Below, piece after piece: positions 9,147 through 47,650 of a stretch of DNA of 64,000 bases. Under the pieces are notes generated by a model. That model had not been told where the DNA came from. It did not search any database and saw only the letters and a program-made list of their open reading frames with translations. The translations under genes were made by a program, and so were the position numbers. The stretch comes from Ramlibacter lithotrophicus (GTDB lineage: Bacteria; Pseudomonadota; Gammaproteobacteria; Burkholderiales; Burkholderiaceae_C): positions 1 to 64,000 of the forward strand of contig NZ_VTOX01000004.1 of NCBI RefSeq assembly GCF_012184415.1, written 5' to 3'. Each line of letters begins with the position of its first letter. Positions within the stretch are counted from its first letter, which is position 1.

Positions 9147-10349
9147 TCAGGCCACGCGCGCGGAGCGCCAGCAGAAATGCAGCGCGCCCGCGAAGAAGGA
9201 TCCGATCGCCGCCTGCATGCCGCAGGCCATCATCGTGATCGCGGGGATGGCATAGCGCATGGTTTCGAGCGGATCGAGCTGGCCGAAGCCGCGGCGGCCC
9301 CAGTCGAAGGTCAGCCAGAGCGACCAGAACAGGCCGGCGGTGAAGGTGGCAAGTCCGAGCATGAGGCCATTCTCGATGGTGAACGACGACGCCCAACGCG
9401 TCATCCACGGCGGCTCGGCCACCAGCCCCGCCAGGACCGCGATCCACTTGCTGAGAAGCGCGAACACGATGAACTGGACTCCGAGGATGGTGGCGCCGGC
9501 CAGGTACAGCAGCGTATGAATGCCGAAGGGCAGGGTGCCTGGCGCGGGCGGCGCGAGCACCCCCAGGCCGAGGCCCGCCAGCCCGGCGACCAGGAGCGCG
9601 ACCCCGGGGTAGAGGAACAGCCACCTCGGGCAGAACAGCAGCAGGAAGCGCAGGTGGCGCCAGCCATCGCGCCAGGTACGCAGATGCGAAGGCCTTCCGC
9701 GCCCGTCGGGCCGCAACGTGGTCGGCACCTCTTCGATCCGCAGCCTCGCGAGCGCAGCCTTGGCGACCAGCTCGCTGGCGAACTCCATGCCGGGCGTGAT
9801 GAGGCCCAGCCCGAGCACCGCATCGCGCGAGAAGCCGCGCAGACCGCAATGGAAGTCGCCGATGCGGGTGCGGAAGAAGACCCGCCCGACGAAGCTGAGG
9901 ACCGGATTGCCGAGATACCGGTGGAGGAACGGCATGGCGTTCGGGGCGATGCCGCCGCGGAACCGGTTGCCCATCACCAGGTGGGCACCGCCGCGCAGCT
10001 TCCCGAGGAATTCCGACAGCCTCGAGAAATCGTAGCTGTCATCGGCATCCCCCATGATCACGTAGCGGCCACGCGCCGCGGCCACGCCGGCGAGCAGGGC
10101 GGCGCCGTATCCGCGCTGCGCGACGTGCAGCACGCGTGCACCCGCTTCCCGCGCGATGTCGGGCGATCCGTCCTCGGAGCCGTTGTCGGCCACCAGAACC
10201 TCGCCGCGCACGCCCGCGCCCTCGATGAAGCTGCGCGCGGCGCGGACGCACGCTCCCACCGTCCGGGCCTCGTTGAGGCACGGCATCAGGACGGTCAACT
10301 CGGGTGCGGCGTCATCCACGGCGGCGGCAGGTCGAACTTCGATGAGCAT
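9147..10349 (-). CDS. Dolichyl-phosphate mannose synthase-like GT2 with membrane tail
   Basis: A 400-residue enzyme. The N-terminal ~230 residues are a GT2 catalytic domain (ELTVLMPCLNEARTVGACVR, GEVLVADNGSEDGS, and the metal motif in IMGDADDSYDF). The C-terminal part has about four membrane segments. This layout matches DPMS/GtrB-like proteins that charge polyprenyl phosphate with a sugar for use by a GT-C enzyme on the other face of the membrane. The adjacent membrane protein pair fits that partner role. I start at ATG 10349 rather than the upstream TTG at 10370, which lies inside the pilin terminator hairpin. Confidence 0.8.
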   Translation of the reverse strand: MLIEVRPAAAVDDAAPELTVLMPCLNEARTVGACVRAARSFIEGAGVRGEVLVADNGSEDGSPDIAREAGARVLHVAQRGYGAALLAGVAAARGRYVIMGDADDSYDFSRLSEFLGKLRGGAHLVMGNRFRGGIAPNAMPFLHRYLGNPVLSFVGRVFFRTRIGDFHCGLRGFSRDAVLGLGLITPGMEFASELVAKAALARLRIEEVPTTLRPDGRGRPSHLRTWRDGWRHLRFLLLFCPRWLFLYPGVALLVAGLAGLGLGVLAPPAPGTLPFGIHTLLYLAGATILGVQFIVFALLSKWIAVLAGLVAEPPWMTRWASSFTIENGLMLGLATFTAGLFWSLWLTFDWGRRGFGQLDPLETMRYAIPAITMMACGMQAAIGSFFAGALHFCWRSARVA

Positions 10350-10359
10350 CCAAATGAAA

Positions 10360-10379
10360 CGAGCGGCCAAAGCCGCTCG
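10360..10379 (-). terminator. Likely intrinsic terminator of the pilin gene
   Basis: An 8-bp perfect stem (CGAGCGGC and its complement) with a 4-base loop lies 32 bases after the pilin stop. On the minus strand it is followed by the short T-rich run TTTCATTT. Strong pilin expression with a terminator before the glycosyltransferase genes is a common arrangement. Confidence 0.6.
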
Positions 10380-10411
10380 CTCATCATCTCAGATGCCAGG
10401 CAACCGGGCTA

Positions 10412-10891
10412 TCAGGTACCGCGGCAGGAACCGGGCAGGAACTTGGGCGGCATCGGGGTCGTGGCGTCCGGACCGCAGACCCACTTGAACACCGGGGAAC
10501 CCATGTGGTTCGTCGTCGCCGGGTTCTTGGGGGTGCTGCCATCGTGGTACGGCGTCAGGTTGATCTTCTTGCCGTCGATGTTGGAGTCGCCGAAGCCAGT
10601 CGCCTCGACCGTGATCACGCCAGCCGTGCTGGTATGGATGCTCCTGACGTACTTGCTGGTCTGGTCCGTCGCCTCGCAGCCCCAGCCGTCGGCCGTCGGG
10701 GTCGACGAACCGGACTGATACACCTCGGTGATCGTCGTGCGGCAGGCGGACGCGGCCAGCACCACTTCGGACATCTTGGCCCGCTTCGTGTAGTCCTGAT
10801 ACGCGGGCAGCGCCACGGCGGCCAGAATGCCGATGATCGCAACCACGATCATCAGTTCGATAAGGGTGAAACCCTGTTGCATACGCTTCAT
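10412..10891 (-). CDS. pilA: Type IV pilin PilA
   Basis: A 159-residue prepilin. It has a 7-residue type III leader (MKRMQQG) cut before F8 in the motif [19 protein letters not shown], with Glu12 at mature position +5. The hydrophobic N-terminal helix is followed by a globular head with four cysteines; the last two bracket a C-terminal loop as in class IVa pilins. It would be the major subunit of a type IV pilus used in twitching, attachment or DNA uptake. I chose ATG 10891 because GGAGGT sits just upstream. It has its own sigma-54 promoter at 10927-10941 and follows a GspE/PilB-type ATPase gene on the same strand. Confidence 0.92.
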
Positions 10892-10926
10892 GTGACCTCC
10901 GAAAGTGAAAGAAGCCGGGTGGATTC

Positions 10927-10941
10927 GCAATAGCTGTGCCA
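10927..10941 (-). promoter_or_regulatory. Sigma-54 (RpoN) promoter of pilA
   Basis: On the minus strand the sequence reads TGGCAC-AGCTA-TTGC, which matches the sigma-54 consensus TGGCAC-N5-TTGC exactly. It lies 36 bases upstream of the pilA start, which puts transcription start about 25 bases before the ATG. Sigma-54 with the PilS/PilR pair is the established control of pilA in Pseudomonas and relatives; PilR itself is not in this window. Confidence 0.85.
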
Positions 10942-10950
10942 GCGCATGTT

Positions 10951-10968
10951 GTAGTTCCATGGAACTAC
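10951..10968. promoter_or_regulatory. 18-bp perfect palindrome next to the pilA promoter
   Basis: The sequence GTAGTTCCATGGAACTAC is a perfect 18-bp palindrome beginning ten bases upstream of the -24 element. Its position immediately behind the sigma-54 promoter, in the gap after the ATPase gene, suits a dimeric regulator site. It does not match the CRP consensus TGTGA-N6-TCACA. It could instead form a transcript hairpin at the end of the ATPase message, though no T-run follows. Confidence 0.45.
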
Positions 10969-11068
10969 TTTTCGGGTGCTTTGCTGGTCCGCGCTGCCCA
11001 AAAACGGCCGAGCTTCCCGCTCATCCGACATTTTTGTCATCGCTGGCTGCGTCGGCGCCCGGCGCGCC

Positions 11069-13477
11069 CTACTTGATGCAGACGGCGCGCACCTGCTTCA
11101 GGTCGGTCAGCCCCAGCATCACCTTCTCCATCCCGTCCATCTTCAGCGTGCGCATGCCGGTCTCGACCGCATGGGCGAACAGCGCCGCCACGCGGGCTCG
11201 CTCCTGGATCAGGCGCTTCATCTCGTCGTCCGCCACCAGCAACTCGTGCAGGCCCAGCCGGCCCTTGTAGCCGGTCTGGTTGCATTTGTCGCAGCCCACC
11301 GCCTTGTGGAAGCGCAGGTGGCCGCCCTGGCCGTAGAGCTTCAGCCAGCTCTCGTACAGCTTCTTCGCCTCCCCGGCGTAATCCGCCTTCCAGGCGGTGG
11401 TGTTGCGCAGTTCCTCGGCGTACTCGGCGATGAACAGCTTCACTTCTTCCTGGTCCGGCGCGTACTCCTGCTTGCAGTCGCACAGCTTCTTGGCCAGGCG
11501 CTGGGCCAGGATGCCGAGCAGGGCATCGGCGAAATTGAACGGGTCCATGCCCATGTCCAGCAGGCGCACGATCGACTCCGGCGCGGAGTTGGTGTGCAGC
11601 GTCGAGAACACGAGGTGGCCGGTCAGCGAGGCCTCCACGCCCATCGAGACCGTCTCGTGGTCGCGCGACTCGCCGACCATGATGATGTCCGGGTCGGCGC
11701 GCAGGAAGGCCCGCATGATGGTCGCGAAATCGATGCCCGCCTTCTTGTTGATCTGGACCTGGCGCAGCCCTTTCTGCGTGATCTCGACCGGGTCCTCGGC
11801 GGTCCAGATCTTGGTGTCCGGCGTGTTGAGGAATTTCAGGATGGAGTGCAGCGTCGTCGTCTTGCCCGAGCCGGTCGGACCGCACACGTAGAACAGCCCG
11901 TACGGCTTGCTCACGGTCTTCTCGAGCCGCTCGCGGTTGTGCGGCGTCAGGCCGAGCTTCTCCAGCGGGATCGGCTCGCCGGCGGCCAGGATCCGCATCA
12001 CCACGTCCTCGACACCGCCGGCCGACGGGATCGTGGCGACGCGCAATTCGATGTCGAGCGGGCCGAACTTCCTGAACTTGATCTTGCCGTCCTGGGGCTT
12101 GCGCTTTTCCGAGATGTCCAGGTCGCACATGATCTTCAGGCGCGTCACCAGGGCCTGCCGGAAATGCGACGGCACCTCGATGTAGGGCTGCAGGCTGCCG
12201 TCGATGCGGAAACGGATGCCCGTCTTCGACTTGCCGGGCATCGGCTCGATGTGGATGTCGGATGCCTTCTGCTGGTAGGCGTCGACGATGACCTTGTTGA
12301 CGAACTTGACCAGTTCGTTGTCGGCGGCCGCGCTCTCGAGGGCGGTTTCGTCGCCGTTCTCCTCCTCCAGCGCCCCGCCCATGTCGGCCAGCAGCTCGTC
12401 GATCGAAGCTTCCTTGTCGCCGCCGTACAGCTGGACCAGCGTTTCGTCGAATTCGGCCTGCGTGGTCACCCGGTACGTGAACTTCGTGAAGCGCGGGAAC
12501 ACCTGCGGCACGACGCGGGAGCCCCGCACCGCCTCCGGATCGGTGCACATGATCACGAGTCCTTCGGGCGACTCCTCCAGCGGGATCCAGCGGTGCTCCT
12601 GCACGAACTCGCGCTTGAGCGGTCCCTGGAGCTGCTCGGACCGGATGCGGCCGGCATTGAACGGCTCGTACGGCACCCCGAAGAACTTCGACAGCGACGC
12701 GCCGATCTGCCCCGGCCGGATCCTGAAGTTCTCCATCAGCATGCGCTCGACCGGCTCGCCCTGCTCGCGCGCCTTGCGGATGCACTCCTGCAGCTCCGCG
12801 GCCGTCATCACGCCATCGTTGACGAGCGCGTCGTATTTCGTTGCGCGGCGCCGCTGCTCGTCCGACGCCTTCTGCATGCGCTGGCGGATGGCCGTCGCCA
12901 GCGTCTTGCACAACTGGGTCGCACCCTCGACTTCCAGTTCGCCGAACGGCTGGTCGTTCTTGTTGTTGATCACCTGCAGCACGCCGTGCAGCTTCTCGCC
13001 GTCGGCGATCGGCAGCACCAGCATCTGCCTGGTCCGGTACCCCGAGCGCTTGTCCACTTCCTTCAGGAACATGAGCGATGGATTGATCCGCCGCAGCGCC
13101 TCCTCGTCGTACACGTCCGCGATGTTGAGGACCTGGCCGCTGAGCGCCACGTAGCCGGCGATGCTCTGCGCGCTGATCGGCAGCTTGAGGTCGCGGCTGG
13201 TGTTCAGGCCGGTCTTCACCTTGGAGATGATGGCGCTGCGGTCCTCGGTCACCGCGTACAGCGTCAGGCGGTCCGCATTGAGCAGCTTGCAGATGTCCTG
13301 GCTCGACTCGAGCATGATCTGCTCGACGTTCTCGGTGTCGTGGATGCGCGTGGTGACCTGCTGCAGCCGCCGGTAGAACAGCGCCTCGAAGGAGACGCCG
13401 CGCTTGTCGGGCGGCAGCTGCTGCGACTCCAGGAACGCCAGCTCGGAATCCGGCGGCCGCGGCAAGACCGCGCTCAC
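11069..13477 (-). CDS. GAF-domain GspE/PilB-family secretion/pilus ATPase
   Basis: An 802-residue hexameric AAA-type motor. Order: GAF domain (about 40-205), GspE/PilB N-terminal domain (about 225-350), then the ATPase core with Walker A GPTGSGKTTT at 533-542, an Asp-rich box around IWTAEDPVE, a Walker B region FLRADPDIIMVGE, and a tetracysteine zinc site (Cys666, 668, 729, 732) whose two halves are about 60 residues apart. GTG 13477 overlaps the stop of the upstream phosphodiesterase gene (GTGA). PilB-type enzymes usually carry MshEN/GspE-N regions; an N-terminal GAF is unusual and suggests control by a small ligand, possibly the cyclic nucleotide handled by its neighbours. Assembly of the adjacent pilin is inferred. 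Confidence 0.85.
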   Translation of the reverse strand: MSAVLPRPPDSELAFLESQQLPPDKRGVSFEALFYRRLQQVTTRIHDTENVEQIMLESSQDICKLLNADRLTLYAVTEDRSAIISKVKTGLNTSRDLKLPISAQSIAGYVALSGQVLNIADVYDEEALRRINPSLMFLKEVDKRSGYRTRQMLVLPIADGEKLHGVLQVINNKNDQPFGELEVEGATQLCKTLATAIRQRMQKASDEQRRRATKYDALVNDGVMTAAELQECIRKAREQGEPVERMLMENFRIRPGQIGASLSKFFGVPYEPFNAGRIRSEQLQGPLKREFVQEHRWIPLEESPEGLVIMCTDPEAVRGSRVVPQVFPRFTKFTYRVTTQAEFDETLVQLYGGDKEASIDELLADMGGALEEENGDETALESAAADNELVKFVNKVIVDAYQQKASDIHIEPMPGKSKTGIRFRIDGSLQPYIEVPSHFRQALVTRLKIMCDLDISEKRKPQDGKIKFRKFGPLDIELRVATIPSAGGVEDVVMRILAAGEPIPLEKLGLTPHNRERLEKTVSKPYGLFYVCGPTGSGKTTTLHSILKFLNTPDTKIWTAEDPVEITQKGLRQVQINKKAGIDFATIMRAFLRADPDIIMVGESRDHETVSMGVEASLTGHLVFSTLHTNSAPESIVRLLDMGMDPFNFADALLGILAQRLAKKLCDCKQEYAPDQEEVKLFIAEYAEELRNTTAWKADYAGEAKKLYESWLKLYGQGGHLRFHKAVGCDKCNQTGYKGRLGLHELLVADDEMKRLIQERARVAALFAHAVETGMRTLKMDGMEKVMLGLTDLKQVRAVCIK

Positions 13478-14265
13478 AGCTCGAATTCCTGGCCGGCGCG
13501 CAGCCACCGGATGTCGTGCGCGACGTTGTGGCCGAACGGCTGCGTCTGGTCGAAGCGCTGGATCTCGCTCATGATCAGGTCGGTTTCGGCCGGCTTGGTG
13601 TGCATGATGTAAATGGGGAAATTCTTGTTCCGGTCGATTCGATCCAGCTCGTTGGCAAGCACGTGCGGCGACAGGTGCAGGCTGCGCTCGGCGAGTTCCT
13701 TCTCGCGGTTGCTGAAGGCCGTCTCGATCACCAGCGCCGCGACGTCCAGCTCGTTCAGGCGGCGCCAGAAGGCGGGATTGCGCTCGGTGTCGCCGGTGAA
13801 AACCCAGCAGCCACCGCCCGCCGTGACGGCATAGCCGACGGCGGGGACCGTGTGCACCGCAGGCAGCACCTCGATGTGCTTGCCGCCGAGGTGCAGGGTC
13901 TCGCCGACGTGAAGCTCACGGAACTGCACGAACGGGGCCCGCTCCGAGGGAATCCGGGTGAAGTCCGGCCAGATCACGTCGTTGAACACGTGCGCCCTGA
14001 GGGCGGCGATCGTCCCGGCGAGCGCATGGACCTGCACCGGCCGGGCCAGCCCGGACGCGATCGCGTCGACCATCAGCGGCAGCGCGGCGACGTGGTCCAG
14101 GTGCGAATGCGTGAGCAGGACGTGCTCGATGCCGCGCATCTCGTCGAGCGTGAGGTCGCCCACTCCCGTGCCGGCGTCGAGCAGGACGTCGCGGTCGATC
14201 AGGAAGGACGTGGTCCGGCAGTCCTTCGCGATCGCGCCGGAGCAACCCAGCACCCGCACCTTCAT
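13474..14265 (-). CDS. MBL-fold 3',5'-cyclic-nucleotide phosphodiesterase candidate (class II type)
   Basis: A 263-residue metallo-beta-lactamase-fold hydrolase. The metal motif is THSHLDHVAALPLM, with further ligands in PAVHTVP, FTGDTE and the late HTKP. The set fits the class II cyclic nucleotide phosphodiesterase family (PDE1/CpdP), which hydrolyses cAMP. The location between an adenylate cyclase gene (27 bases upstream) and the GAF-ATPase gene (4-base overlap downstream) supports a signal-clearing role. A related MBL hydrolase with another substrate cannot be excluded from sequence alone. Confidence 0.7.
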   Translation of the reverse strand: MKVRVLGCSGAIAKDCRTTSFLIDRDVLLDAGTGVGDLTLDEMRGIEHVLLTHSHLDHVAALPLMVDAIASGLARPVQVHALAGTIAALRAHVFNDVIWPDFTRIPSERAPFVQFRELHVGETLHLGGKHIEVLPAVHTVPAVGYAVTAGGGCWVFTGDTERNPAFWRRLNELDVAALVIETAFSNREKELAERSLHLSPHVLANELDRIDRNKNFPIYIMHTKPAETDLIMSEIQRFDQTQPFGHNVAHDIRWLRAGQEFEL

Positions 14266-14292
14266 GTCAATCTCCGCCGAGCCATGGATTGC

Positions 14293-16542
14293 TCACTTGG
14301 TTTCGAACCTGCTCGTGCCGTCCCACTCCGGATCCAGCGGCAGCGTTCGCAGCGAGGCTACACGCTGGGCATAGAGTTCGTAAAGGTATTTTTTCGGGTT
14401 CATCCGCCGCAGCTCGGGCAACAGCAGGTCGCAGTGGTCCCAGTCCTGCGCGCGGTACGCCTCGAGGAACGTCGCCCAGGCCTGGAGCTCCTCCTGCGCC
14501 GCCCTGTCGATGCGCCCGGCCGGGGCGGCCGGCCAGTAGATGGCCACACTCTGCTCCTTTCCCTTGACCCGGACACGGTCAATTTCCTGCCAGGCGAAGT
14601 CCGGCGCCTGGCGGCGGGTGGCCTCGCTGGCCACGATGTCCACGCCGTACACCTTGGAGAGGCCCTCGAGGCGCGAGCCCAGGTTGACCGCGTCGCCGAT
14701 CACGGTGTAGCTGCGCCGGATGTCGGAGCCCATGTCGCCGACGAACATCATCCCGGTGTTCAGGCCGATGCCGACGCCGATCTCCGCCCTTCCCCTGGCG
14801 CGCTGCTCCTCGTTGATCCGGCGCACGGCGTTGGCCATCTCCAGCGCGCACTTGACGGCATAGTGCGCGGGCTGCTCGATCTCGACGGGCGCGCCCCAGA
14901 AGGCCATCACGCAGTCGCCCATGTACTTGTCGATGGTGCCCCGGTTGCTGCGGATCACGTCGGTGAGCCGGTTGAACAGCGTGTTGAGAAGTTCCTGCAC
15001 CTGCGCGGGCTGCAGCTGTTCGGACACCTTCGTGAAATTGCGCATGTCGCAGAACATCACCGTCAGTTCGCGGCTGGCGGCCTTCATGCTGTAGCTGTCC
15101 GGGTCCTTCACCATCTCGTCGACCAGTTCCGGCGGCACGTAGGTGCCGAACAGGTTGGCCAGTTCGCGCTTGCTGCGGCTCTCGACGAAATAGCCATAGC
15201 TCATGTTGAGCGCCGACGTGACGATGGCCATCCCCAACGCGGCGGCGAGCGGCAGCACCAGGCCGGCGCCCGTGTACAACGCGAAATTCAGCGCCACGAT
15301 GCCGGCGATCACCACCGCGCTGAGCACCAGCGCCCGGCGCGCGGTGAGCAGCGGCAATGCCAGGGCGAGCACGAGGCCGGCCAGGAGCAGGACCACGAGG
15401 TCGAATCCCCTCGCGTAGTCGGGCTGCACCAGCATGCGGTTGTCCAGCAGCCCCGACAACAGGTTCGCGTGGATCTCGACGCCCGAATACGTCTCCCCGA
15501 CCGGCGTGACGCGATGATCCAGCAGGCCGGGGGCCGTCGTTCCCACCAGGACGATCTTGCCCTTGAGCGTGCCGGGCGGGATGCGCTTGGCGATCAGGTC
15601 CGACGCCGAGACGTACCGGAACGAGCCGCCCTCGGGACCGCCCGGTCCGCGAAACGGAACCAGCGTGGTCACGGCCTCGGCCACGGGAATCGCGAAGATC
15701 TTCTGTCCGAGCCGCAGCCGCACGCTCTCCAGGTTCTGGTATTCGCCGGGCACGGTACCTTCCGGAGGAAACCCCGGCTCGACGGTGGGCAGACCCATCA
15801 GCAGGCGGAACACCGCCAGCGACAGCGACTCGTAGTAGCGGTCCTGGTACTCCGCGATCAGCGGAACGGAACGGACCACGCCGTCCGGGTCCACGGCGGG
15901 ATTGAAGAACCCGCCCATGGTCGTGGCGCCGGCGATCGGCGCGATGTTGGCGCCGAAACCGTTCCAGCTCGTGACCTTGATCGGCAGGCCGCGCAGCGCG
16001 CCCTTGTCCATCACCGGGGGCGGCAGCACCCCCGCCGTGCGCCCGCCCCGGTCACTCGTGAAGTAGTAGCCCAGCACCACCGGCCGCTGCCGCAGGGATC
16101 TTGCGAACAGCGCGTCGTAATCGAGGGAGCCCTGCAGCTGCTGCAGCTTCTGGACGAAACCGGGCTCGTCCTTCAGGTCGCCGCTCGCCAGCCGCCGCAG
16201 CTGCTGCAGTCCGGAGGTGTCGTCCTCCTCGGGAAACACGACGTCGAAGCCGACGACGCTGACCTGCTGGCGATCGAACAGCTCGTCCATCAGTTCGGCG
16301 AGCCGGACACGGGCCCATGGCCAGTGCCCCACCTCCGCCAGGCTCTTTTCGTCGATGTCGACGACGACGATCCGCTCGTCGAGCGTGCGGGGCATCGTCC
16401 AGCGCAGCCGGGCATCGTAGATGATGCTGTCCAGCCGCTGCAGCACGCCGATCGGCAGCGCGTCGGTGGCATGCAGCAGGGCGAACAGGAGCGGCACGAG
16501 CGCGATGGCGATTCGCGCTCCGTGTCTTCGTAGGGCTTTCAT
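14293..16542 (-). CDS. CHASE2-domain class III adenylate cyclase
   Basis: A 749-residue inner-membrane sensor enzyme. An N-terminal membrane segment leads to a ~320-residue periplasmic CHASE2 domain (VVDIDEKSLAEVGHWPWARV, VVGFDVVFPE, GKIVLVGTTAPGL), then three membrane helices, then a class III cyclase domain at about 480-660. The metal-binding Asps are in VMFCDMRNFT and KYMGDCVMAFWG. The purine-selecting pair is Lys (in IDKYMGD) and Thr (in YTVIGDAVN), as in cyanobacterial CyaB1-type adenylate cyclases, so ATP is the likely substrate. A helical tail follows. It lies 27 bases before the phosphodiesterase gene and 40 bases after the FHA gene, so maker and breaker of the signal are in one operon. 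Confidence 0.88.
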   Translation of the reverse strand: MKALRRHGARIAIALVPLLFALLHATDALPIGVLQRLDSIIYDARLRWTMPRTLDERIVVVDIDEKSLAEVGHWPWARVRLAELMDELFDRQQVSVVGFDVVFPEEDDTSGLQQLRRLASGDLKDEPGFVQKLQQLQGSLDYDALFARSLRQRPVVLGYYFTSDRGGRTAGVLPPPVMDKGALRGLPIKVTSWNGFGANIAPIAGATTMGGFFNPAVDPDGVVRSVPLIAEYQDRYYESLSLAVFRLLMGLPTVEPGFPPEGTVPGEYQNLESVRLRLGQKIFAIPVAEAVTTLVPFRGPGGPEGGSFRYVSASDLIAKRIPPGTLKGKIVLVGTTAPGLLDHRVTPVGETYSGVEIHANLLSGLLDNRMLVQPDYARGFDLVVLLLAGLVLALALPLLTARRALVLSAVVIAGIVALNFALYTGAGLVLPLAAALGMAIVTSALNMSYGYFVESRSKRELANLFGTYVPPELVDEMVKDPDSYSMKAASRELTVMFCDMRNFTKVSEQLQPAQVQELLNTLFNRLTDVIRSNRGTIDKYMGDCVMAFWGAPVEIEQPAHYAVKCALEMANAVRRINEEQRARGRAEIGVGIGLNTGMMFVGDMGSDIRRSYTVIGDAVNLGSRLEGLSKVYGVDIVASEATRRQAPDFAWQEIDRVRVKGKEQSVAIYWPAAPAGRIDRAAQEELQAWATFLEAYRAQDWDHCDLLLPELRRMNPKKYLYELYAQRVASLRTLPLDPEWDGTSRFETK

Positions 16543-16582
16543 CCGTTCAGGCCTCGGCCGCCGGCGAGCCGCGGCAACGGCG

Positions 16583-17272
16583 TCAGTTCTGGACGAACTG
16601 CATCTGCGTCCCGGCCAGTTCCAGCAGGTCCCCGTGGCGCAACGGCACCGGGTCGGCGCCGATCACCGTCCCGTTCACGCTGGCCCGGTTCGCGCCCTCC
16701 ACGTGCGCCACCACGAAGCCCTGCGGCCGCTTGGTGATGGAAGCGACGGCGACGCCGGGCTTGCCGATGGTCGTCACCACCTTGACCAACGCCACCTCGC
16801 GGCCGGCGGCCGCGCCCGAGAGCACCTTGATGCTGCCGTGCACATGGCTCATGTCGTACCCGGTCGCGCCGGCCGGCGCGGCCGGCGCCGTGGGCGGCGG
16901 CGCAGCGGGCCTGGCCTGGGCGGGAGCCGGCGGCGGCGTCGAGCCCGGCTTGATGATCATCGTCTTCTCGAAGCTGGCCGCCGGCGCTTCGTTGACGTAC
17001 TTGATCTTGTACTTGCCGATCTCGACGGTGTCGGCATTTTGCAACAGCTGCTTCTTCACCGCCTTGCCGTTGACGTACGTGCCGTTGGTGCTGTTGAGAT
17101 CCTCCAGGTAGACCTCGTTGCCGTTCATCAGCAGGACCGCATGCTCGCCGCTCACGGCGAGGTTGTCGATCACGATGTCGTTGTAAGGCCGCCGACCCAG
17201 CGTCGTGCGATCCTTGCTCAGCTGCACTTCCTTGATGACGACACCGTCGATCGAGACGATCATTTTCGGCAT
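16583..17272 (-). CDS. FHA-domain protein (one canonical, one degenerate FHA)
   Basis: A 229-residue cytoplasmic phosphothreonine reader. FHA 1 (about 20-90) has the core motif TLGRRPYNDIVIDNLAVSGEH and NSTNGTYVNG. A Pro/Ala linker with FEKTMIIKPG, which holds a threonine suitable for phosphorylation, leads to a second FHA-like region (about 145-229) lacking some core residues but keeping VNGTVIGADPVPLRHGD. In such operons FHA proteins are typical targets and adaptors of the neighbouring kinase. The start has AGGAG upstream. It lies 48 bases after the PP2C gene and 40 bases before the cyclase gene. Confidence 0.85.
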   Translation of the reverse strand: MPKMIVSIDGVVIKEVQLSKDRTTLGRRPYNDIVIDNLAVSGEHAVLLMNGNEVYLEDLNSTNGTYVNGKAVKKQLLQNADTVEIGKYKIKYVNEAPAASFEKTMIIKPGSTPPPAPAQARPAAPPPTAPAAPAGATGYDMSHVHGSIKVLSGAAAGREVALVKVVTTIGKPGVAVASITKRPQGFVVAHVEGANRASVNGTVIGADPVPLRHGDLLELAGTQMQFVQN

Positions 17273-17320
17273 GGTCCGCTCCTGTCTGTTTGGCTCATGG
17301 GATGTCCCAGTACGGTCGGG

Positions 17321-18121
17321 CTATTTTCCCAGCAAACGCGACATCAGCCCGCGCTTTTTGGAACCCTCGCCCGCCAGCGCCAGCAGAACGGAGATGTTGT
17401 CGCGGCCGCCGTTGGCGTTGGCCGCTGCCACCAGCTGCGTCACCTTGTCCTCCAAGCTGCCCTCCTGTCGCAGGATGTTCGCGATCCCCTCGTCGTTCAC
17501 CATATCAGACAAGCCGTCGGAGCACATCAGAAAGAGGTCCCCCGGCTCCACCTTCTGCTCGGTGACTTCAAGCATCACGGTGTCCTCGACGCCCAGGGCG
17601 CGGGTGACGAGGTTCTTGTTCGCTGAGGTTGCGGCCTGGGCCGCCGTGATCAGTCCGGCGTCGATCTGCTCCTGCAGCAGCGAATGATCCTTCGTCACCT
17701 GCGTCAGCTCCGCATCGCGCAGCCGGTAGCAGCGGGAGTCCCCGATGTGGCCCAGCATCAGCCGCGCGTCCTGGAACACTCCCAGCACGAGGGTCGTTCC
17801 CATGCCGCTGTAATGCGGGTTGGAGTTCGCCGCGTTGAAGATCGAGCGGTTGGCGTTGTCGACGCAGATTTCCATGGCGCGCCGCACTTCGCGCGCGTTC
17901 GCATGGCGGCCGGCCTGGGACAGCCAGCGCCCCAGTTCCGACTTGATGAACGTGGTCGCCATGCCGCTGGCAATCTCGCCGGCGTTGTAGCCGCCCATCC
18001 CGTCGGCCAGGATGGCCAGCCGGGTGGCCTCGTCGACGGCGACGGAATCCTCGTTGTTCTCCCGCGCGAGGCCCGGGTCCGTCCGAAAGCGAAACTCGTA
18101 GTTCATATCTTCCCGGGTCAT
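17321..18121 (-). CDS. PP2C-type Ser/Thr protein phosphatase
   Basis: A 266-residue PPM-family phosphatase. All metal motifs are present: RENNEDS near the N-terminus, ILADGMGGYNAGE, LGHIGDSRCYRLRD, LFLMCSDGLSDMV and GGRDNISVLLA. It removes phosphate from Ser/Thr and is the natural counterpart of the adjacent kinase. The ATG at 18121 overlaps the kinase stop by 4 bases (ATGA); a second ATG at 18106 is possible. No membrane segment is seen, so it is cytoplasmic. Confidence 0.9.
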   Translation of the reverse strand: MTREDMNYEFRFRTDPGLARENNEDSVAVDEATRLAILADGMGGYNAGEIASGMATTFIKSELGRWLSQAGRHANAREVRRAMEICVDNANRSIFNAANSNPHYSGMGTTLVLGVFQDARLMLGHIGDSRCYRLRDAELTQVTKDHSLLQEQIDAGLITAAQAATSANKNLVTRALGVEDTVMLEVTEQKVEPGDLFLMCSDGLSDMVNDEGIANILRQEGSLEDKVTQLVAAANANGGRDNISVLLALAGEGSKKRGLMSRLLGK

Positions 18122-20847
18122 GGCTCCAGGTCGCTTGGCCGGTCCCCACCGGGCCGGGCGCCGGAGGCGGACGGCGGGCCGGCCCCCTCGGCGCTGGCGA
18201 AGCGCGCGTTCGCGCCATTGCTGGCGCTCGGGGCCGCATCATATCCGGGCGCCTGGGGCGGCGCGGCGGCAGCCTGGACCACCGTTCGGCCGAAGTCGGG
18301 CGCCGCGGCCTGCGTGCGGGAAGCGGCCGCCGGCAGCTCGTCGAGCGCCACGCGCAGATCGGCCGCGAACTGCTCCCCGCTCTGGTAGCGTGCTTCCGGC
18401 GCCTTGGCCAGCGCCAGGGCGACCACGCGCGCCAGCCGTTCGGAGAGTTCGGGCCGCAGCACGCGCACGTCGGGCGCTTCCTCGTTGGCGATCCGGTACA
18501 TCAGCTCCGCCATCGACTCGCCGCGGAACGGCAGCACGCCGGTGAGCATCTGGAACAGCATCACGCCCAGCGAATACAGGTCGGAACGGCCGTCCACCTT
18601 CTTGCCGGCGATCTGCTCGGGCGACATGAAGCTCGGCGTGCCCAGCACCAGCCCGGTCTTGGTCTTGCTGGAATCCGTGATGCGCGCGATGCCGAAGTCG
18701 GTCACCTTCACGACGTCGCCGTCCGGCTCGTACATGATGTTGGCCGGCTTGATGTCCCGGTGCACGACGTTCTGCCGGTGCGCGTAGCCGAGCGCATCGG
18801 CGACGCGGGCCGCGATGCCGAGCACGCGCGGCAGGGGCAGCAATTGCCCCGGCTTGCAGAAGTCCGCCAGGTCGCTGCCCTTGAGGAATTCCATCGCGAT
18901 GTACGCCAGGTCGTGCTCCTCGCCGGCGTCGAAGATGGTGACGATGTTCTGGTGCTGCAGCCGGCCTGCGGTTTCGGCTTCGCGGAAGAAGCGCCCGCGG
19001 GCGTCGACCAGCTCGTCGCCCGCGAACTCCTGGCCGAGGGCCATCGTCTTGATCGCGACCACGCGGCCGATCTTCGGGTCCTTGCCGAGGTACACCACGC
19101 CCATCGCGCCCTTGCCCAGTTCCTTTTCGAGCTGGTAGCGGCCCAGCATCGGCTTTTCGACCGCGCCGCCTTCGAGCAGGATGGTGCCGCCGGGATGCGA
19201 GCCGCCGCCGCCGAGGATCACGGTCTCGGACAGGTTCCTGGCGCGATTGAGCTTGGACTTCACGTCCTTGAACCCGGCGTCCCACGCGGCCATGTGCTCG
19301 TACACCGTCTGCGCCTTGTTGAACTGGCGCTTGCGCTCGAAGTCCAGCGCCAGGTGGTACAGGTTCTCCATCAGCGCGTCGCCCATCGGCACGCGCCGGA
19401 ACCGGTCGAACGCCATGTCCAGCTGGCCCTGTCCCTGCAGCGCGAGCCCCATCATCCGATTGGTCTCGGCCGACTCGTCGTCGGACTTCAGCTTGCCGGC
19501 CTCGGTCACGACGTAGCGCTTGGTCGTGAGCGCGAGGTGCCCGATCAGCAGCAGCGTCGCCGGGAACATCAGCTGCAGCCACAGGGCCGCCCCGGCGAGC
19601 AGCCCGAACTCGCTGCCCGCCAGCAGGAGCAGCAGGATGGCGGTGGCGGCGGCGCCCTTGCCGGCCGAGAGGCGGGGCAGCAGTGCGACGAGGTAGGCTG
19701 CCACGAGCAGGAAGACACCGAACTCGGCCAGGCCCGCCCATGACGGCCGCACCAGGAAGTGCTCGCCCAGGATGCTCGACGTGATGTGCGCGATCAGCTC
19801 CACCGGCGACAGCCCGGCGTAGCCTGGCACCGGGAACTGCGTGCCCACGCCTGCGGCCGTCGCGCCGACCAGCACGATCTTGCCGGCGTATTTCGACGGC
19901 GGGATCTTTCCGTTCAGCACGTCGTAGAAGGAATCGACCGCGAAGGCCGGGCCGCCCTGGCGGCCCTTGTAGAACTGCGGCAGCAGGCGCGCCTCCTCCG
20001 AGGTGCGGATCCTCAGCCGGCCCAGTTGCACGGCTTCGCCCGGCTGCAGCCGCAGGTCGCCCGGACCGAGGTTGAGGCTGCGCGCCGCCGCCAGCAGGGC
20101 CATCGACGGCACCGCCTTCCCGTAATAGTTGATGAGCAGCGCCTCGTCGCGCACGGCCCCGTCGGCGTCGTGCAGCTGGTTCAGGTGGCCCACGCCCGCG
20201 GCCGCCTGGCCGAGGGCCGGCAGCGGGTACTGGCCGCGCACCGCCGGGATCGAATAGCCGTGGGTCTCGTCGACGGCGTGGCGTGCCACGTAGGCGGGCA
20301 GAGGCTGATCCGGCTTGCCGCGCGGCTCGCCGACCACGTAGACGGCCGGGAGCAGCACGTTGCCGGCACGGGCGATGCTCGCCGCCAGCAGGGCATCGGT
20401 GTCGAGGGTGCGCTCAGCCTCTTCGATCACCTGTTGCGCCGCGGCACCGGCCTCCTGGTCGGGCAGTGCGGCGAGGGCATCCCTGATCCTGCGAATGAAC
20501 GCCAGGCCGCGGTCCGTCTGCGGCTCGAAGAAGAACGTGGTGTAGACGATCGTCTTGGCCTGCGCGGCGGCCAGCTTGTCGATCAGCTGCGCGTGCACGT
20601 CGCGCGGCCAGGGCCAGCGCCCGATGTTCGCCACGCTCTGGTCGTCGATCGCGACGACGGCGATGCGGTCGGACGGCCGGGGCGCGCCGCTGGTGCTGCC
20701 GAAGTCGTAGAAGCGGCGCTCAAGGGAGCCGATCGCGTCGGTGCCCTGGTGCAGGCTCCATACCGCCAGCACGATCACCAGGGCGACGAACCAGTCCGCA
20801 CGCCAGAAGGCAGCCCGCCTCGTCGATGATGAAGTGCCCACTGACAC
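18118..20847 (-). CDS. CHASE2-domain Hanks-type Ser/Thr protein kinase
   Basis: About 909 residues. A membrane segment (ADWFVALVIVLAVWSLHQG) is followed by a periplasmic CHASE2 domain (about 45-380), three membrane helices (about 385-455), a short helical/TPR-like linker, and a kinase domain at about 570-835. Catalytic features: glycine loop GKGAMGVVYLGKD, Lys600, HRDIKPAN with Asp698, and DFG Asp717. A disordered Pro/Ala/Ser tail ends the protein. The GTG at 20847 (or GTG 20841) lies just behind GAGGGG; the longer frame upstream lacks coding character. It is first in a six-gene operon. Kinase and cyclase share the same sensory domain type, suggesting that both read a similar periplasmic cue. 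Confidence 0.87.
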   Translation of the reverse strand: MSVGTSSSTRRAAFWRADWFVALVIVLAVWSLHQGTDAIGSLERRFYDFGSTSGAPRPSDRIAVVAIDDQSVANIGRWPWPRDVHAQLIDKLAAAQAKTIVYTTFFFEPQTDRGLAFIRRIRDALAALPDQEAGAAAQQVIEEAERTLDTDALLAASIARAGNVLLPAVYVVGEPRGKPDQPLPAYVARHAVDETHGYSIPAVRGQYPLPALGQAAAGVGHLNQLHDADGAVRDEALLINYYGKAVPSMALLAAARSLNLGPGDLRLQPGEAVQLGRLRIRTSEEARLLPQFYKGRQGGPAFAVDSFYDVLNGKIPPSKYAGKIVLVGATAAGVGTQFPVPGYAGLSPVELIAHITSSILGEHFLVRPSWAGLAEFGVFLLVAAYLVALLPRLSAGKGAAATAILLLLLAGSEFGLLAGAALWLQLMFPATLLLIGHLALTTKRYVVTEAGKLKSDDESAETNRMMGLALQGQGQLDMAFDRFRRVPMGDALMENLYHLALDFERKRQFNKAQTVYEHMAAWDAGFKDVKSKLNRARNLSETVILGGGGSHPGGTILLEGGAVEKPMLGRYQLEKELGKGAMGVVYLGKDPKIGRVVAIKTMALGQEFAGDELVDARGRFFREAETAGRLQHQNIVTIFDAGEEHDLAYIAMEFLKGSDLADFCKPGQLLPLPRVLGIAARVADALGYAHRQNVVHRDIKPANIMYEPDGDVVKVTDFGIARITDSSKTKTGLVLGTPSFMSPEQIAGKKVDGRSDLYSLGVMLFQMLTGVLPFRGESMAELMYRIANEEAPDVRVLRPELSERLARVVALALAKAPEARYQSGEQFAADLRVALDELPAAASRTQAAAPDFGRTVVQAAAAPPQAPGYDAAPSASNGANARFASAEGAGPPSASGARPGGDRPSDLEP

Positions 20848-20895
20848 GCCCCTCGTGCAGCCTGACCGGTGCCAGGCACTCCGCGGCACTGGCAG

Positions 20896-20919
20896 GTGCC
20901 CGCTGCTGCGAGCGGGCAC
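20896..20919. other. Hairpin in the leader of the kinase operon
   Basis: A perfect 9-bp inverted repeat (GTGCCCGCT and complement, 6-base loop) lies between the terC-family stop and the kinase start. No T-run follows on the minus strand, so it is not a standard terminator. It could be a transcript hairpin or a protein site; nothing else is recognisable in 20848-21002. Confidence 0.35.
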
Positions 20920-21002
20920 ACAACCGTCAGGACGTTAGCAGAGGCTCACCGGAGGGACAAGTAACTTCTTCACGCGGTGCATACATTTGGTTGCAGCCAT
21001 CG

Positions 21003-21710
21003 TCAGGCAGGCTCGGACTGGCCGTTGCGCCGCGCCGCCAGCAGCTTGCTGATCGCCAGCACGAGGAGCGCGCCCGCCGCGGCGGCGACGTATTCCCAGG
21101 TCTTGCTTTCGGGCAGGTACGGCCGCACGCCCGGGTCGGTGAACGCCATCTGGCCCGCGATCCACCCGAGCAGCATCGCGCCCAGGGTGATGATGATCGG
21201 GAACCGGTCCATCAGTTTCAGCACCAGCTGGCTGCCGGCCACGATGATCGGAATGCTCACCAGAAGGCCGAAGATCACGAGCGGGATCTGGTGCGAGCCG
21301 GCGCCGGTCGCGGCGCCGGCGATCGCCAGGACGTTGTCGACGCTCATCACGAGGTCGGCCACGATCACGGTCTTGACGGCGCCCCAGAGCTTGTCGCTGG
21401 ACCCGATGTTGCTGTGATCGTCATCGTCGTGCTGGGGCGACAGCAACTGCACGCCGATCCACACCAGCAGCGCGCCGCCGACGAGCTTCAGGTACGGAAT
21501 CGACAGCAACGCCAGCGCGAAGGCGATCAGGATCACCCGCAGGACGATGGCGCCGGCCGTTCCGTAGATGATGCCCAGCTTGCGCTGCTTGGGCGGCAGC
21601 CCCCGGCACGCAAGCGCGATGACGACCGCGTTGTCGCCCCCAAGCAGGATGTCGATCAGGATGATCTGCCCGACGGCGATCCAGAAGGGGGCGGTCAGCA
21701 ATGCGTCCAT
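21003..21710 (-). CDS. TerC/YjbE-family integral membrane protein
   Basis: A 235-residue inner-membrane protein with about seven membrane helices. The first has the family signature ILIDILLGGDNAVVIALACRG, repeated in ADLVMSVDNVLAIAGAATG; the intramembrane Asp-Asn pairs probably bind a metal. TerC-family proteins are linked to manganese export and metal loading of secreted proteins. A His/Asp-rich loop (PQHDDDDHSNIG) sits between helices 3 and 4. I saw no yybP-ykoY-type manganese riboswitch upstream. It lies between sucD and the kinase operon on the same strand. Confidence 0.85.
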   Translation of the reverse strand: MDALLTAPFWIAVGQIILIDILLGGDNAVVIALACRGLPPKQRKLGIIYGTAGAIVLRVILIAFALALLSIPYLKLVGGALLVWIGVQLLSPQHDDDDHSNIGSSDKLWGAVKTVIVADLVMSVDNVLAIAGAATGAGSHQIPLVIFGLLVSIPIIVAGSQLVLKLMDRFPIIITLGAMLLGWIAGQMAFTDPGVRPYLPESKTWEYVAAAAGALLVLAISKLLAARRNGQSEPA

Positions 21711-21753
21711 GCAGGAGTCTCGGTGCGGATGGTCGGTGGAGGAACACCCATTG

Positions 21754-21778
21754 TCCGCGAACCGCGGGGGCTCGCGGA
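21754..21778 (-). terminator. Possible terminator after sucD
   Basis: TCCGCGA and its complement form a 7-bp stem at 21754-21760/21772-21778 within a G/C-rich loop, downstream of sucD on the minus strand. There is no clear T-run, so it may be a weak or factor-assisted terminator between sucCD and terC. Confidence 0.35.
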
Positions 21779-21803
21779 TTGTGGATAACCGTAATCCCGT
21801 CCG

Positions 21804-43500: not shown

Positions 43501-44145
43501 GACCGCCTGGTGGAGGCCGGCGGGCGGCACCGCCGCGTCGTCGCCCAGGCCGGCGCCACGCTCGGCGAGAACACCTTCGTCGCCGGCCGCGTCGAGCGGC
43601 TGCGCGTCGACAACCCGGCGTCGCCGGGCGTCGACCTGCGCACCCCGAGCCTGCCGTTCCTCGAGGAGTTGCGCAACGCACAGGTGGTGAACCTGTCGAC
43701 CACCGACCTGCTGGAGGGCACGCCCTCGTTCCGCCGCGGCACGCTGCGCGCGGCGACGGTCGGCATCAACCACATGTTCAGCCGGCACGCGAGCGGCTAC
43801 GCCAAGGTGCTGCACCAGGACAGCAGCAGCAGCCTCGACGGCGCGGACGCCGACGCCGCGGGCAAGCGCATCCCCTACCTGCCGCGCTGGACGGTGGCGC
43901 TCGGCGCGACCTGGGCCAGCGACGCCCGCGTCTACCTCAGCGCCCGGCTCGTGCACCGCTCGCTGCGCTACGAGGACCAGGAAAACCGCAAGGTCCTGGC
44001 GGGCGGCACCACCATGGACCTGATGGGATTCCGGGAGACCGCCGACAAGCGCTGGGTGATCGGTGCCGCCGCGCTCAACCTGCTGGGCGGCAAGTCCGAG
44101 CGCCAGAGCCGGCGCTACATCGTCGATGTCCGCTACCGCTTCTAG
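40582..44145 (+). CDS. FecR-TPR-outer-membrane beta-barrel fusion protein
   Basis: 1187 residues. A signal peptide (about 1-27, ending ATAA) exports it. A FecR domain (about 45-150) has LLFADQTQVRLHQNTVLQV and TPAATAGIRGTDWDIEVEPG. A long TPR array (about 230-560) follows, e.g. YTAVAYWQLGRHQDAIATLE. The last ~540 residues have alternating polar/aromatic strands of an outer-membrane barrel and end in Phe (YIVDVRYRF). FecR domains normally relay signals in the periplasm. Its stop overlaps the CHASE2-cyclase start by 20 bases, strongly coupling the two. I infer an envelope-spanning receptor that reports to the cyclase; barrel homology is by strand pattern only. Confidence 0.78.
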   Translation: MKDRACRQAVRWLAAAGLLWSAQATAALPAGAAAEILTLQGSGEQRTGSAPQWRPARIAQALAAGDFVRTGEASRMALLFADQTQVRLHQNTVLQVKGVATPAQPLTTMLLEIGRAWAQTRRVPDSRLELQTPAATAGIRGTDWDIEVEPGGRTLLTVLSGTVTLSNPQGTVVVGSNEAALAEVGKAPVRIQLSQPADRVQWVNALVAEPLRHLPSGAVPPALLPARAALASRDAAALEAALAAVQAQPEWVAVFQAALDMLGGRSGDAGRRLAALLRGTDAPVAAYGMLADLQLVDGDNAQAQSTLRGGLARWPGTPVLRAQLAQAQLLAGHTDESARTLAPVRPEDPADLWLARGALARREGDVRGTVDAYTRATRLAPGDDRGWFGLGSAHTEREDTVPARAALQQALQLHPHGPGYRGELGTLETLRNAMPHAHAAFDAALADDPGDYVALTGRGLLRLKEGEPQAALDDLLRAGVMEPRYARAKAYTAVAYWQLGRHQDAIATLEQAAALDDKDPLPWLFLAQIHTDLFRAGDAVQASRRAVERMPYLKSLNQLANDQQGRANFGAALAFFGMEEWALELAQQGYHPYWGGSHLFLADRYPGEFNKNSELFQGFLADPLAFGGSPRFSTLLQRPGAYGVVGATHDRDFYRLSAPSFAVNGLAHPGYPLAFFAKGQRANVSGMPVEIGAGSEDYDARARVDTIAVGARPTERLGALIYLTQTDIGLGGRRELDFFGDGTLGTSRIDNTTRQATLGLSYRWSPTAQTWLKLGSATDDSEFYGLQSPFADEWSSGSLGLVGILRKRVVDLQLRHTSDPDADTRLALGIEHVREAQDNQVGGMGPVRMEFLGESFTDTMVFTGFNDIARRFSAVTLAGERRLSPAVRLDATLVANWLRQDVHGRNSIGFLALGAADGADANERGTQRALTPRVGFVFQPRPQLTLRAAYQDWLRPLSVSTLGSVQTAGIPVEDRLVEAGGRHRRVVAQAGATLGENTFVAGRVERLRVDNPASPGVDLRTPSLPFLEELRNAQVVNLSTTDLLEGTPSFRRGTLRAATVGINHMFSRHASGYAKVLHQDSSSSLDGADADAAGKRIPYLPRWTVALGATWASDARVYLSARLVHRSLRYEDQENRKVLAGGTTMDLMGFRETADKRWVIGAAALNLLGGKSERQSRRYIVDVRYRF

Positions 44146-46690: not shown

Positions 46691-47650
46691 ATGACGTCGC
46701 GCAGGCGTCCCCCGGCGGGCGCGGCCGAGCCGCGCGCGGGCGCGCCGGACGAGGCGTCCGGCATCCGCACGTACCGGATGGTCGACCGGTCGGACCGGCT
46801 CGACTTCGAGATCCGCGACCACACCGTCCGGCCGCCGGTGGTCATGCCGCACCGGCACGAGTTCTTCCAGATCGAGGCCAACGTCAGCGGCGAGGCGCAC
46901 CACGTGCTGGCGGGCAAGCGCTGCCGCTACCCGGCGCGCTCGCTGATCTTCATCCTGCCGTACCGGGTGCATTACGCGGCGCACGAACCAGGCGCCTCCG
47001 AGTACTACGTCATCAACTTCGCCACCAACTTCCTGCGCCACGACTTCGACCTGTCGCCGCTGGACATGGAAGAGGCGTCGATCGCCGAGTACCCCGAACT
47101 GACGCCGTTCCTGTACGAAGGCCACGTCGATTTCGTCTTCGGCGAACGGGATTTCCGCCACGTGCTGGCCTTGCTGCAGCACCTCGCCGTGCTCCACCGG
47201 GACCGCAAGCTCGGCACCATAGAGCGCATCCGCGGCGCACTGCTGGAGCTGATCGGCTTTACCGTGGAGCGCTACGCCGACGAACTGGAGGCGCTCTCGG
47301 GCCGCCGGGTCTACATGCAGGGCCGCACCGACGCCCTGCGGCGCGTGCTGAAGTTCATCGACGAACACCTGCAGCGGGACATCTCGCTCAACGAAGTGGC
47401 CGAGGCCGCATTCCTGTCGCCGAACTACCTCTCGCAACTGCTCAAGAAGCAGACCGGCATGGCCTTCGTCGAGTGGCTCACCGCGCGCCGGATGGAACGC
47501 GCGCAGCACCTGCTGTCGCACACCGGCGAGCGCATCTTCGCGGTGGCGAACGCGGTGGGCTTCGCCGACGAGGCGTATTTCACGCGGCGGTTCCGGCAGC
47601 GGTTCGGCCAGTCGCCGAGCGGGTACCGCAAGGCGATGCGGGGATCGTGA
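46691..47650 (+). CDS. AraC-family transcriptional regulator
   Basis: 319 residues. The N-terminal cupin ligand domain includes VVMPHRHEFFQIEANVSGEA. The C-terminal double helix-turn-helix has DISLNEVAEAAFLSPNYLSQ and IFAVANAVGFADEAYFTRRF, then RFRQRFGQSPSGYRKAM. It faces the seven-gene catabolic operon, whose last gene ends 26 bases from its stop, and is the only regulator close to that operon. Control of that operon is plausible but the convergent layout does not prove it. Confidence 0.88.
   Translation: MTSRRRPPAGAAEPRAGAPDEASGIRTYRMVDRSDRLDFEIRDHTVRPPVVMPHRHEFFQIEANVSGEAHHVLAGKRCRYPARSLIFILPYRVHYAAHEPGASEYYVINFATNFLRHDFDLSPLDMEEASIAEYPELTPFLYEGHVDFVFGERDFRHVLALLQHLAVLHRDRKLGTIERIRGALLELIGFTVERYADELEALSGRRVYMQGRTDALRRVLKFIDEHLQRDISLNEVAEAAFLSPNYLSQLLKKQTGMAFVEWLTARRMERAQHLLSHTGERIFAVANAVGFADEAYFTRRFRQRFGQSPSGYRKAMRGS

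Follow-up and report, generated by a model that had tools for sequence, protein, structure and literature searches.

A conserved signalling operon of Ramlibacter lithotrophicus with candidate Ser/Thr phosphorylation and cyclic nucleotide branches and a PilB-family ATPase

The question raised by this locus is whether six adjacent genes of Ramlibacter lithotrophicus, encoding a CHASE2 kinase, a PP2C phosphatase, an FHA protein, a CHASE2 cyclase, a metallo-beta-lactamase (MBL) fold protein and a GAF-containing ATPase, act together on a pilus-type motor. The genes lie in a stretch of 64,000 nucleotides (contig NZ_VTOX01000004.1, positions 1 to 64,000), hereafter called the window, in which all positions are given. 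All six were recovered as open reading frames on the minus strand where a first-pass annotation had set them, and its description of a one-strand array of these proteins was confirmed by the frames, their spacing and Pfam. The locus is a real, widely conserved signalling operon, and its arrangement is new as far as found: no published description was met with in the literature searched, in which subscription journals are thinly covered. That it is a two-branch signalling operon controlling the motor ATPase is given here a probability of about 0.58. The genes, and the features within them on which the argument depends, are as follows.

18118..20919, minus strand: KIN, CHASE2 sensor with Ser/Thr kinase (Pfam; CHASE2 176.7 bits, Pkinase 173.9 bits)
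19222..19224, minus strand: Thr566 of the KIN juxtamembrane motif SETVIL (T in 87% of 75 orthologues; mean flank conservation 0.46)
17321..18121, minus strand: PP2C, Stp1/IreP-type Ser/Thr phosphatase (NF033484, 252.4 bits against a cut-off of 230)
16583..17272, minus strand: FHA protein with an N-terminal FHA domain, a disordered linker and a C-terminal degenerate FHA-like domain (Pfam, hhalign, model)
16961..16963, minus strand: Thr104 of the FHA linker motif FEKTM[VI][LI] (T in 86/100 orthologues; flank conservation 0.19)
14293..16542, minus strand: CYC, CHASE2 sensor with class III nucleotidyl cyclase (Pfam; CHASE2 and Guanylate_cyc)
13474..14265, minus strand: MBL, class II cyclic nucleotide phosphodiesterase-like protein (Lactamase_B_2; PDEase_II 46.9 bits against a cut-off of 23.7 bits)
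13960..13992, minus strand: HVFND-IWPDF stretch of MBL, common with yeast PDE1 (HVFND-IWPD; sequence comparison)
11069..13477, minus strand: PILB, PilB-like ATPase with GAF, MshEN-like and T2SSE motor ATPase parts (Pfam)
12887..13324, minus strand: GAF domain of PILB, cyclic nucleotide (CyaB2/phosphodiesterase) class (profile comparison with solved structures)

The block extends from 20919 to 11069 with gaps of at most 48 bases or overlaps: KIN and PP2C overlap by 4 bases (ATGA), PP2C and FHA are separated by 48 bases, FHA and CYC by 40 and CYC and MBL by 27, and MBL and PILB again overlap by 4 bases (GTGA). The start of KIN is uncertain (20919, 20847 or another), and that of the ATPase gene is most likely a GTG at 13477.

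Conservation was examined at loci chosen through the MBL gene, the window included, and all frequencies are therefore conditional on the presence of MBL. The listing of MBL matches held 88 entries with the window's own, and wide neighbourhoods were fetched for 80 of them; G001, G096, G051, G078:C178, G074, G059 and G020 were left out of this fetch, and the own locus is the window itself. These 80, another 80 named stretches and the window made 161 stretches, of which 159 yielded an MBL frame, the two lost being loci with a fused MBL gene (L066 and L089, described below). Removal of one duplicate gave 158 distinct MBL loci; 117 had enough flanking sequence, and 100 of these had one or more same-strand cluster genes, the other 17 having none and being dropped. 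Duplicates were removed only when the C-terminal sequence of MBL was identical, and the two sets of 80 stretches may share genomes. A gene was considered present when a reading frame covered more than 70% of the query, partial genes being scored absent, and gene order was judged by gene midpoints.

With these definitions, KIN was present at 65 of the 100 loci, PP2C at 87, FHA at 81, CYC at 67 and PILB at 72. The first-pass annotation had proposed a search for co-occurrence of the six genes across genomes; all six are found at 44 of the 100 MBL loci, always in the same order. The order KIN-PP2C-FHA-CYC-MBL-(CNB)-PILB-(GAF-HD-GYP)-PILA is kept in 99/100 loci, with one exception, and in all 44 complete sets. 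Judged by this conservation of order, the six-gene array is far beyond chance, and a lack of conservation beyond chance, the outcome that the first-pass annotation had named as refuting it, is excluded by gene order and genome-wide co-occurrence. KIN and CYC co-occur at the locus (p 1e-6, 100 loci). The search for relatives of MBL covered a sample of 120 genomes from the order and found them in 78; this order by nearly all named relatives is that of the Betaproteobacteria; the nearest named relatives belong to Ramlibacter, Polaromonas and other Comamonadaceae.

The first branch would consist of the kinase, the phosphatase and the FHA protein. The catalytic K, the R and D of HRD, the N and the D of DFG are kept in 75/75 KIN orthologues, and the five motif Asp of PP2C in 104-105 of 105. 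In the FHA protein, the phosphothreonine-binding residues R, S and N are kept in 99/100 orthologues and H in 100/100. Its C-terminal half matches the FHA half with an hhalign probability of 96.9% (E 1.5e-10; at most 2.45% in 20 column shuffles). The closest solved FHA sequences are those of GarA and OdhI, and the closest folds are Rv0020c, GarA and OdhI, which are tied; this fold comparison spanned residues 1-100 of the model, and the second half was assessed by profile comparison. The tails of GarA and OdhI hold a Thr that is the target of a kinase. Thr566 of KIN lies directly N-terminal of the kinase domain, and Thr104 of the FHA protein just C-terminal of the FHA domain, where the pLDDT of the model is below 50, as in a disordered linker. 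The FHA protein thus has the sequence marks of an OdhI/GarA-type switch: phosphothreonine-binding residues, and a flexible tail in which a Thr is conserved.

The two Thr motifs were compared by alignment column at the 68 loci with both KIN and FHA: counted without regard to kinship, both were kept at 58 loci, the kinase alone had lost its Thr at 7, both were lost at 3 and the FHA protein alone at none. The three FHA proteins without Thr thus all adjoin a kinase without Thr, and one of the 10 kinases without Thr has Ser instead. The motif evidence supports a tie between the kinase and the FHA protein. The FHA motif is also kept in 19 of the 32 FHA proteins that have no full kinase gene at the locus, so a different kinase may serve them. 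A second FHA protein is encoded in the genome of the window (C1:59104-59397, L213) and is 53% identical over the first 97 residues.

The second branch would be formed by the cyclase and MBL. Class III adenylate cyclases are marked by two metal-binding Asp, a substrate-binding Lys and Thr/Asp, and a transition-state Asn and Arg. In CYC the two metal Asp, N and R are kept in 86/86 orthologues and K and T in 85/86, and CYC is probably an adenylate cyclase. The MBL protein, which the first-pass annotation had put forward as a phosphodiesterase candidate, combines an MBL fold bearing HxHxDH with a PDEase_II match above cut-off, the sequence marks of a class II phosphodiesterase, and F94, N95, W99, P100, D101 and F102 of its yeast PDE1-type stretch are invariant in 18 alignment rows (A1). 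The likeness to PDE1 supports a role of MBL as the candidate eraser of the cyclic nucleotide.

The ATPase is where this branch would meet a motor. Its T2SSE domain scores 385.5 bits and shows the hallmarks of the PilT/PilB/GspE superfamily, and the K of Walker A, the E of Walker B and the H of the His box are kept in 90/90 orthologues. The best NCBIfam model is that of PilB (TIGR02538, 476.5 bits), below its cut-off of 675.65; the score for GspE is also below cut-off. Since another gene of the genome scores 708.3 on TIGR02538 and passes the cut-off, that gene is the canonical PilB, and the ATPase of the locus is, by sequence family, a PilB-family paralogue and is named as such. For the pilus motor announced by the first-pass annotation, a PilB-family T2SSE ATPase stands, with a putative part in driving pili. 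The best solved match of its GAF domain is an adenylate cyclase structure, 1ykd (2e-28), which we take to be CyaB2, followed by an HD-GYP protein (4mcw) among phosphodiesterase GAF domains; three control GAF domains, of 11 other GAF matches in the genome, match nothing. By profile comparison this GAF belongs to the cyclic nucleotide class. The GAF domain of an HD-GYP protein found at many related loci (see below) is of the same CyaB2/phosphodiesterase class, and the two are related to each other. The MshEN-like part (PF05157, 35.8 bits) looks degenerate by eye against the two 24-residue motifs of the MshEN c-di-GMP receptor. The N-terminal part of the ATPase was matched in 57/120 genomes of the order (two matches being short) vs 5/228 other genomes class-wide, at 30-32% identity.

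From the gene set and its order, the catalytic residues, the GAF class, the PDE1-type stretch and the Thr motifs, all read from sequence, we infer phosphorylation, the identity of the ligand, a direction of effect on pili and crosstalk between the branches along the following lines. The CHASE2 kinase would phosphorylate its own juxtamembrane SETVIL motif and the KTM[VI][LI] motif of the FHA protein. The FHA domain would read these phosphothreonines, either by binding to the kinase or by folding back onto the tail of the FHA protein in the manner of OdhI and GarA, and PP2C would erase both. The CHASE2 cyclase would produce cyclic AMP (cAMP) and MBL would hydrolyse it; the GAF domain of the ATPase would read cAMP directly and set motor activity. 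In many relatives, the GAF-HD-GYP protein would read the same messenger and lower cyclic di-GMP (c-di-GMP). The first-pass annotation had described a writer, an eraser and readers for two signals; conserved candidate genes exist for this set, and the joint link to pili is argued from gene order.

Association between the cyclase and the ATPase was also examined at the level of genomes. Among the 78 genomes with MBL, 43 have both the cyclase and the GAF-ATPase, 11 the ATPase only, 9 the cyclase only and 15 neither (p 0.0005, uncorrected for kinship). Eight genomes with MBL and the ATPase have a cyclase match elsewhere in the genome; in a cyclase tree, the end branches of such away-from-locus cyclases measure 0.35-1.2, vs at least 5 for the two other CHASE2 proteins of the genome of the window.

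Several observations weigh against joint control of the motor by the two branches. At the 100 loci, the association of CYC is not significant either for PILB (p 0.098) or for GAF output of any kind (p 0.46), and of the 54 MBL genomes in which the GAF-ATPase is found, 11 give no cyclase match at threshold. Six of the eight away-from-locus cyclases were fetched and are 41-46% identical to CYC of the window; only one of the six (L217) nests among the cluster cyclases, with full support, the rest lying outside or being placed ambiguously, so that these proteins may be related to CYC without being orthologues that have moved. The ATPase gene is missing from both Acidovorax loci and from that of Ramlibacter ginsenosidimutans, all of which retain KIN-PP2C-FHA-CYC-MBL, and none of 5 Hydrogenophaga loci has it (one keeps KIN-PP2C-FHA-CYC-MBL, and three are also without the cyclase). 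In other orders of the class (L240-L269), MBL often lies by ffh without a cyclase beside it. Cyclic nucleoside monophosphate (cNMP) GAF domains carry the NKFDE signature, which is partly kept in the ATPase: N and F are conserved, K and D are not. The counts of Thr loss come from lineages that are not independent, and co-loss of the motifs by regular expression was not significant (p 0.15), in a search that missed motifs in proteins with long starts. Finally, it is gene order alone that ties the kinase arm and the FHA protein to the cyclase or the motor.

One alternative is that two independent modules share a neighbourhood. A kinase-phosphatase-FHA switch would act on a target of its own, a cAMP cyclase-phosphodiesterase pair would feed a CRP-type regulator, and the GAF-ATPase would have another ligand or be only co-transcribed. 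Some loci have PP2C-FHA without KIN or CYC and others CYC-MBL alone, 19 cNMP-binding matches are found elsewhere in the genome, and the association of CYC with PILB at the locus is not significant. However, KIN and CYC co-occur, the order is invariant in 99/100 loci, the GAF of the ATPase is of the cNMP class, and the cyclase and the ATPase associate genome-wide, which makes this arrangement rather unlikely. A narrower alternative is that MBL is an RNase Z-like or other phosphodiesterase serving the FHA module and erases no cyclic mononucleotide. Beyond the order, an FHA gene lies near MBL in several loci with no cyclase or ATPase beside MBL, PP2C-FHA accompany it in L245 and L268, and KIN does too in L268; the link of MBL with the ffh/FHA neighbourhood may be older than its link with the cyclase. 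Set beside the PDEase_II score and the PDE1-type stretch, a role of this kind is quite improbable. The ATPase could also be a type II secretion-like or minor pseudopilus motor unrelated to PilA pili, as its scores below the PilB and GspE cut-offs, the canonical PilB elsewhere and the promoter-like site of pilA itself would suggest; PilB is nevertheless its best NCBIfam model, and at 34/100 loci the fetched stretch includes a same-strand pilA-like gene, and we regard this as unlikely. The phosphorylation switch and the cyclic nucleotide arm are each well supported as predictions, and the reading we find most likely, control of the pilus motor by both arms together, is argued from gene order and from the class of one domain.

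The downstream neighbour of the block is pilA, for which the following features were recorded.

10412..10891, minus strand: pilA, type IV pilin (Pfam; Pilin 64 bits, N_methyl 40.5 bits)
10927..10941, minus strand: sigma-54-type -24/-12 site TGGCACAGCTATTGC before pilA (1 in the window vs 0.22 expected)
11009..11023, minus strand: terminator-like hairpin in the gap between the ATPase gene and pilA (weak; 6 such in the region vs 5.9 in shuffles)

The start of pilA is at about 10891, 177 bases downstream of the ATPase gene. A similar sigma-54-type site precedes 19/44 pilA genes vs 1/615 control upstream regions, and in 18 of the 19 cases the site is followed by the leader cleavage motif at a distance of 68-104 bases. 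A scan of 10300-21800 gave no sigma-70-like site, a result that carries little weight in such G+C-rich DNA. Because the weak hairpin and the sigma-54-type site lie in between, pilA probably stands outside the operon, as a separate transcription unit with its own predicted sigma-54 promoter. The idea that the operon continues into pilA as its last gene is weakened by the site before it and was given up. On the other side of the block, the upstream neighbour is terC (Pfam), and a frame that we take to be sucD-like also lies upstream.

Extra genes at related loci were found by clustering of reading frames, with Pfam run on representatives. A GAF-HD-GYP protein is encoded at 51/100 loci, and in 47 of the 48 that also have PILB it follows within 400 bases. 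A cNMP-binding/rhodanese gene follows MBL, mostly before the ATPase gene, at 15/100 loci (e.g. L041, 3408-4496), 14 of which have CYC and 14 PILB. In the two loci outside the counts, MBL is fused to GAF-HD-GYP (L066, 9515-11893; L089, 9418-11832), a fusion that, by its domains, couples a part resembling cNMP phosphodiesterases with one of c-di-GMP phosphodiesterase type. The window locus has neither extra gene; no GAF-HD-GYP was found in its genome at E 1e-10, in a search without a positive control, and the cNMP-binding/rhodanese protein had only matches of 26-30% identity there. Genes of FecR type occur in L037, L038, L056 and L060 and of SlipAM/TPR type in L037 and L056 (clustering with L056 representatives); they sit between MBL and the ATPase gene wherever the stretch includes the latter. 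Other CHASE2 genes are also present in the genome of the window. A second CHASE2-cyclase gene of the window (44063-46090, plus strand) adjoins an AraC-type regulator at 46691-47650, and a third CHASE2 protein (C3:324104-327126, a frame of 1087 aa) has a cNMP-binding protein (684 aa frame) less than 2 kb away on the opposite strand.

Parts of the proposed device have known counterparts. The closest solved relative of the ATPase GAF is the cyanobacterial CyaB2 tandem GAF (1ykd). The GAF of CyaB2 controls a cyclase in the same chain, whereas here it sits on a motor ATPase. The FHA protein resembles actinobacterial OdhI/GarA in having an FHA domain with a flexible tail whose conserved Thr is a likely kinase target; unlike in OdhI/GarA, the Thr is C-terminal of the FHA domain and is followed by a second, degenerate FHA-like domain. 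In the parts consulted of a review of Pseudomonas (PMC11656802), cAMP from an adenylate cyclase acts on type IV pili in the Pil-Chp/CyaB/Vfr system, through the transcription factor Vfr and the chemotaxis system. An action of cAMP is proposed here too, but the motor-family ATPase itself bears a cNMP-class GAF and has a Ser/Thr kinase module as its neighbour; the main text of that review nowhere uses the word GAF. As in the c-di-GMP control of MshE/PilB through MshEN (PMC11656802, same parts), the N-terminal domain of an extension ATPase would read a second messenger. The class of messenger differs, and the MshEN-like part of the ATPase, compared by eye with the motif, looks degenerate. CHASE2 adenylate/guanylate cyclase signalling is shared with CyaD1/CyaD2/CyaK of Sinorhizobium meliloti, where, in the portion of PMC13001267 consulted, the reader is the CRP-family Clr and no Ser/Thr kinase, FHA or pilus motor partner is mentioned.

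If the proposed control is true, cAMP would bypass transcription and have a direct effect on a pilus-type motor, and the locus would also encode Ser/Thr phosphorylation and, in many relatives, the breakdown of c-di-GMP. In its fullest form, which we regard as possible and put forward tentatively, a pilus-family motor would be gated directly by cAMP through its own GAF, and with the cyclase, the phosphodiesterase and the kinase/FHA/PP2C switch in one operon would make up a device with two inputs that is complete in itself and widespread in one order, and whose GAF-HD-GYP partner would relay the cAMP state to c-di-GMP in many lineages. Within one large order the gene set is common, and the proposal makes sharp predictions on the ligand of the GAF, the substrate of MBL and two phosphothreonines.
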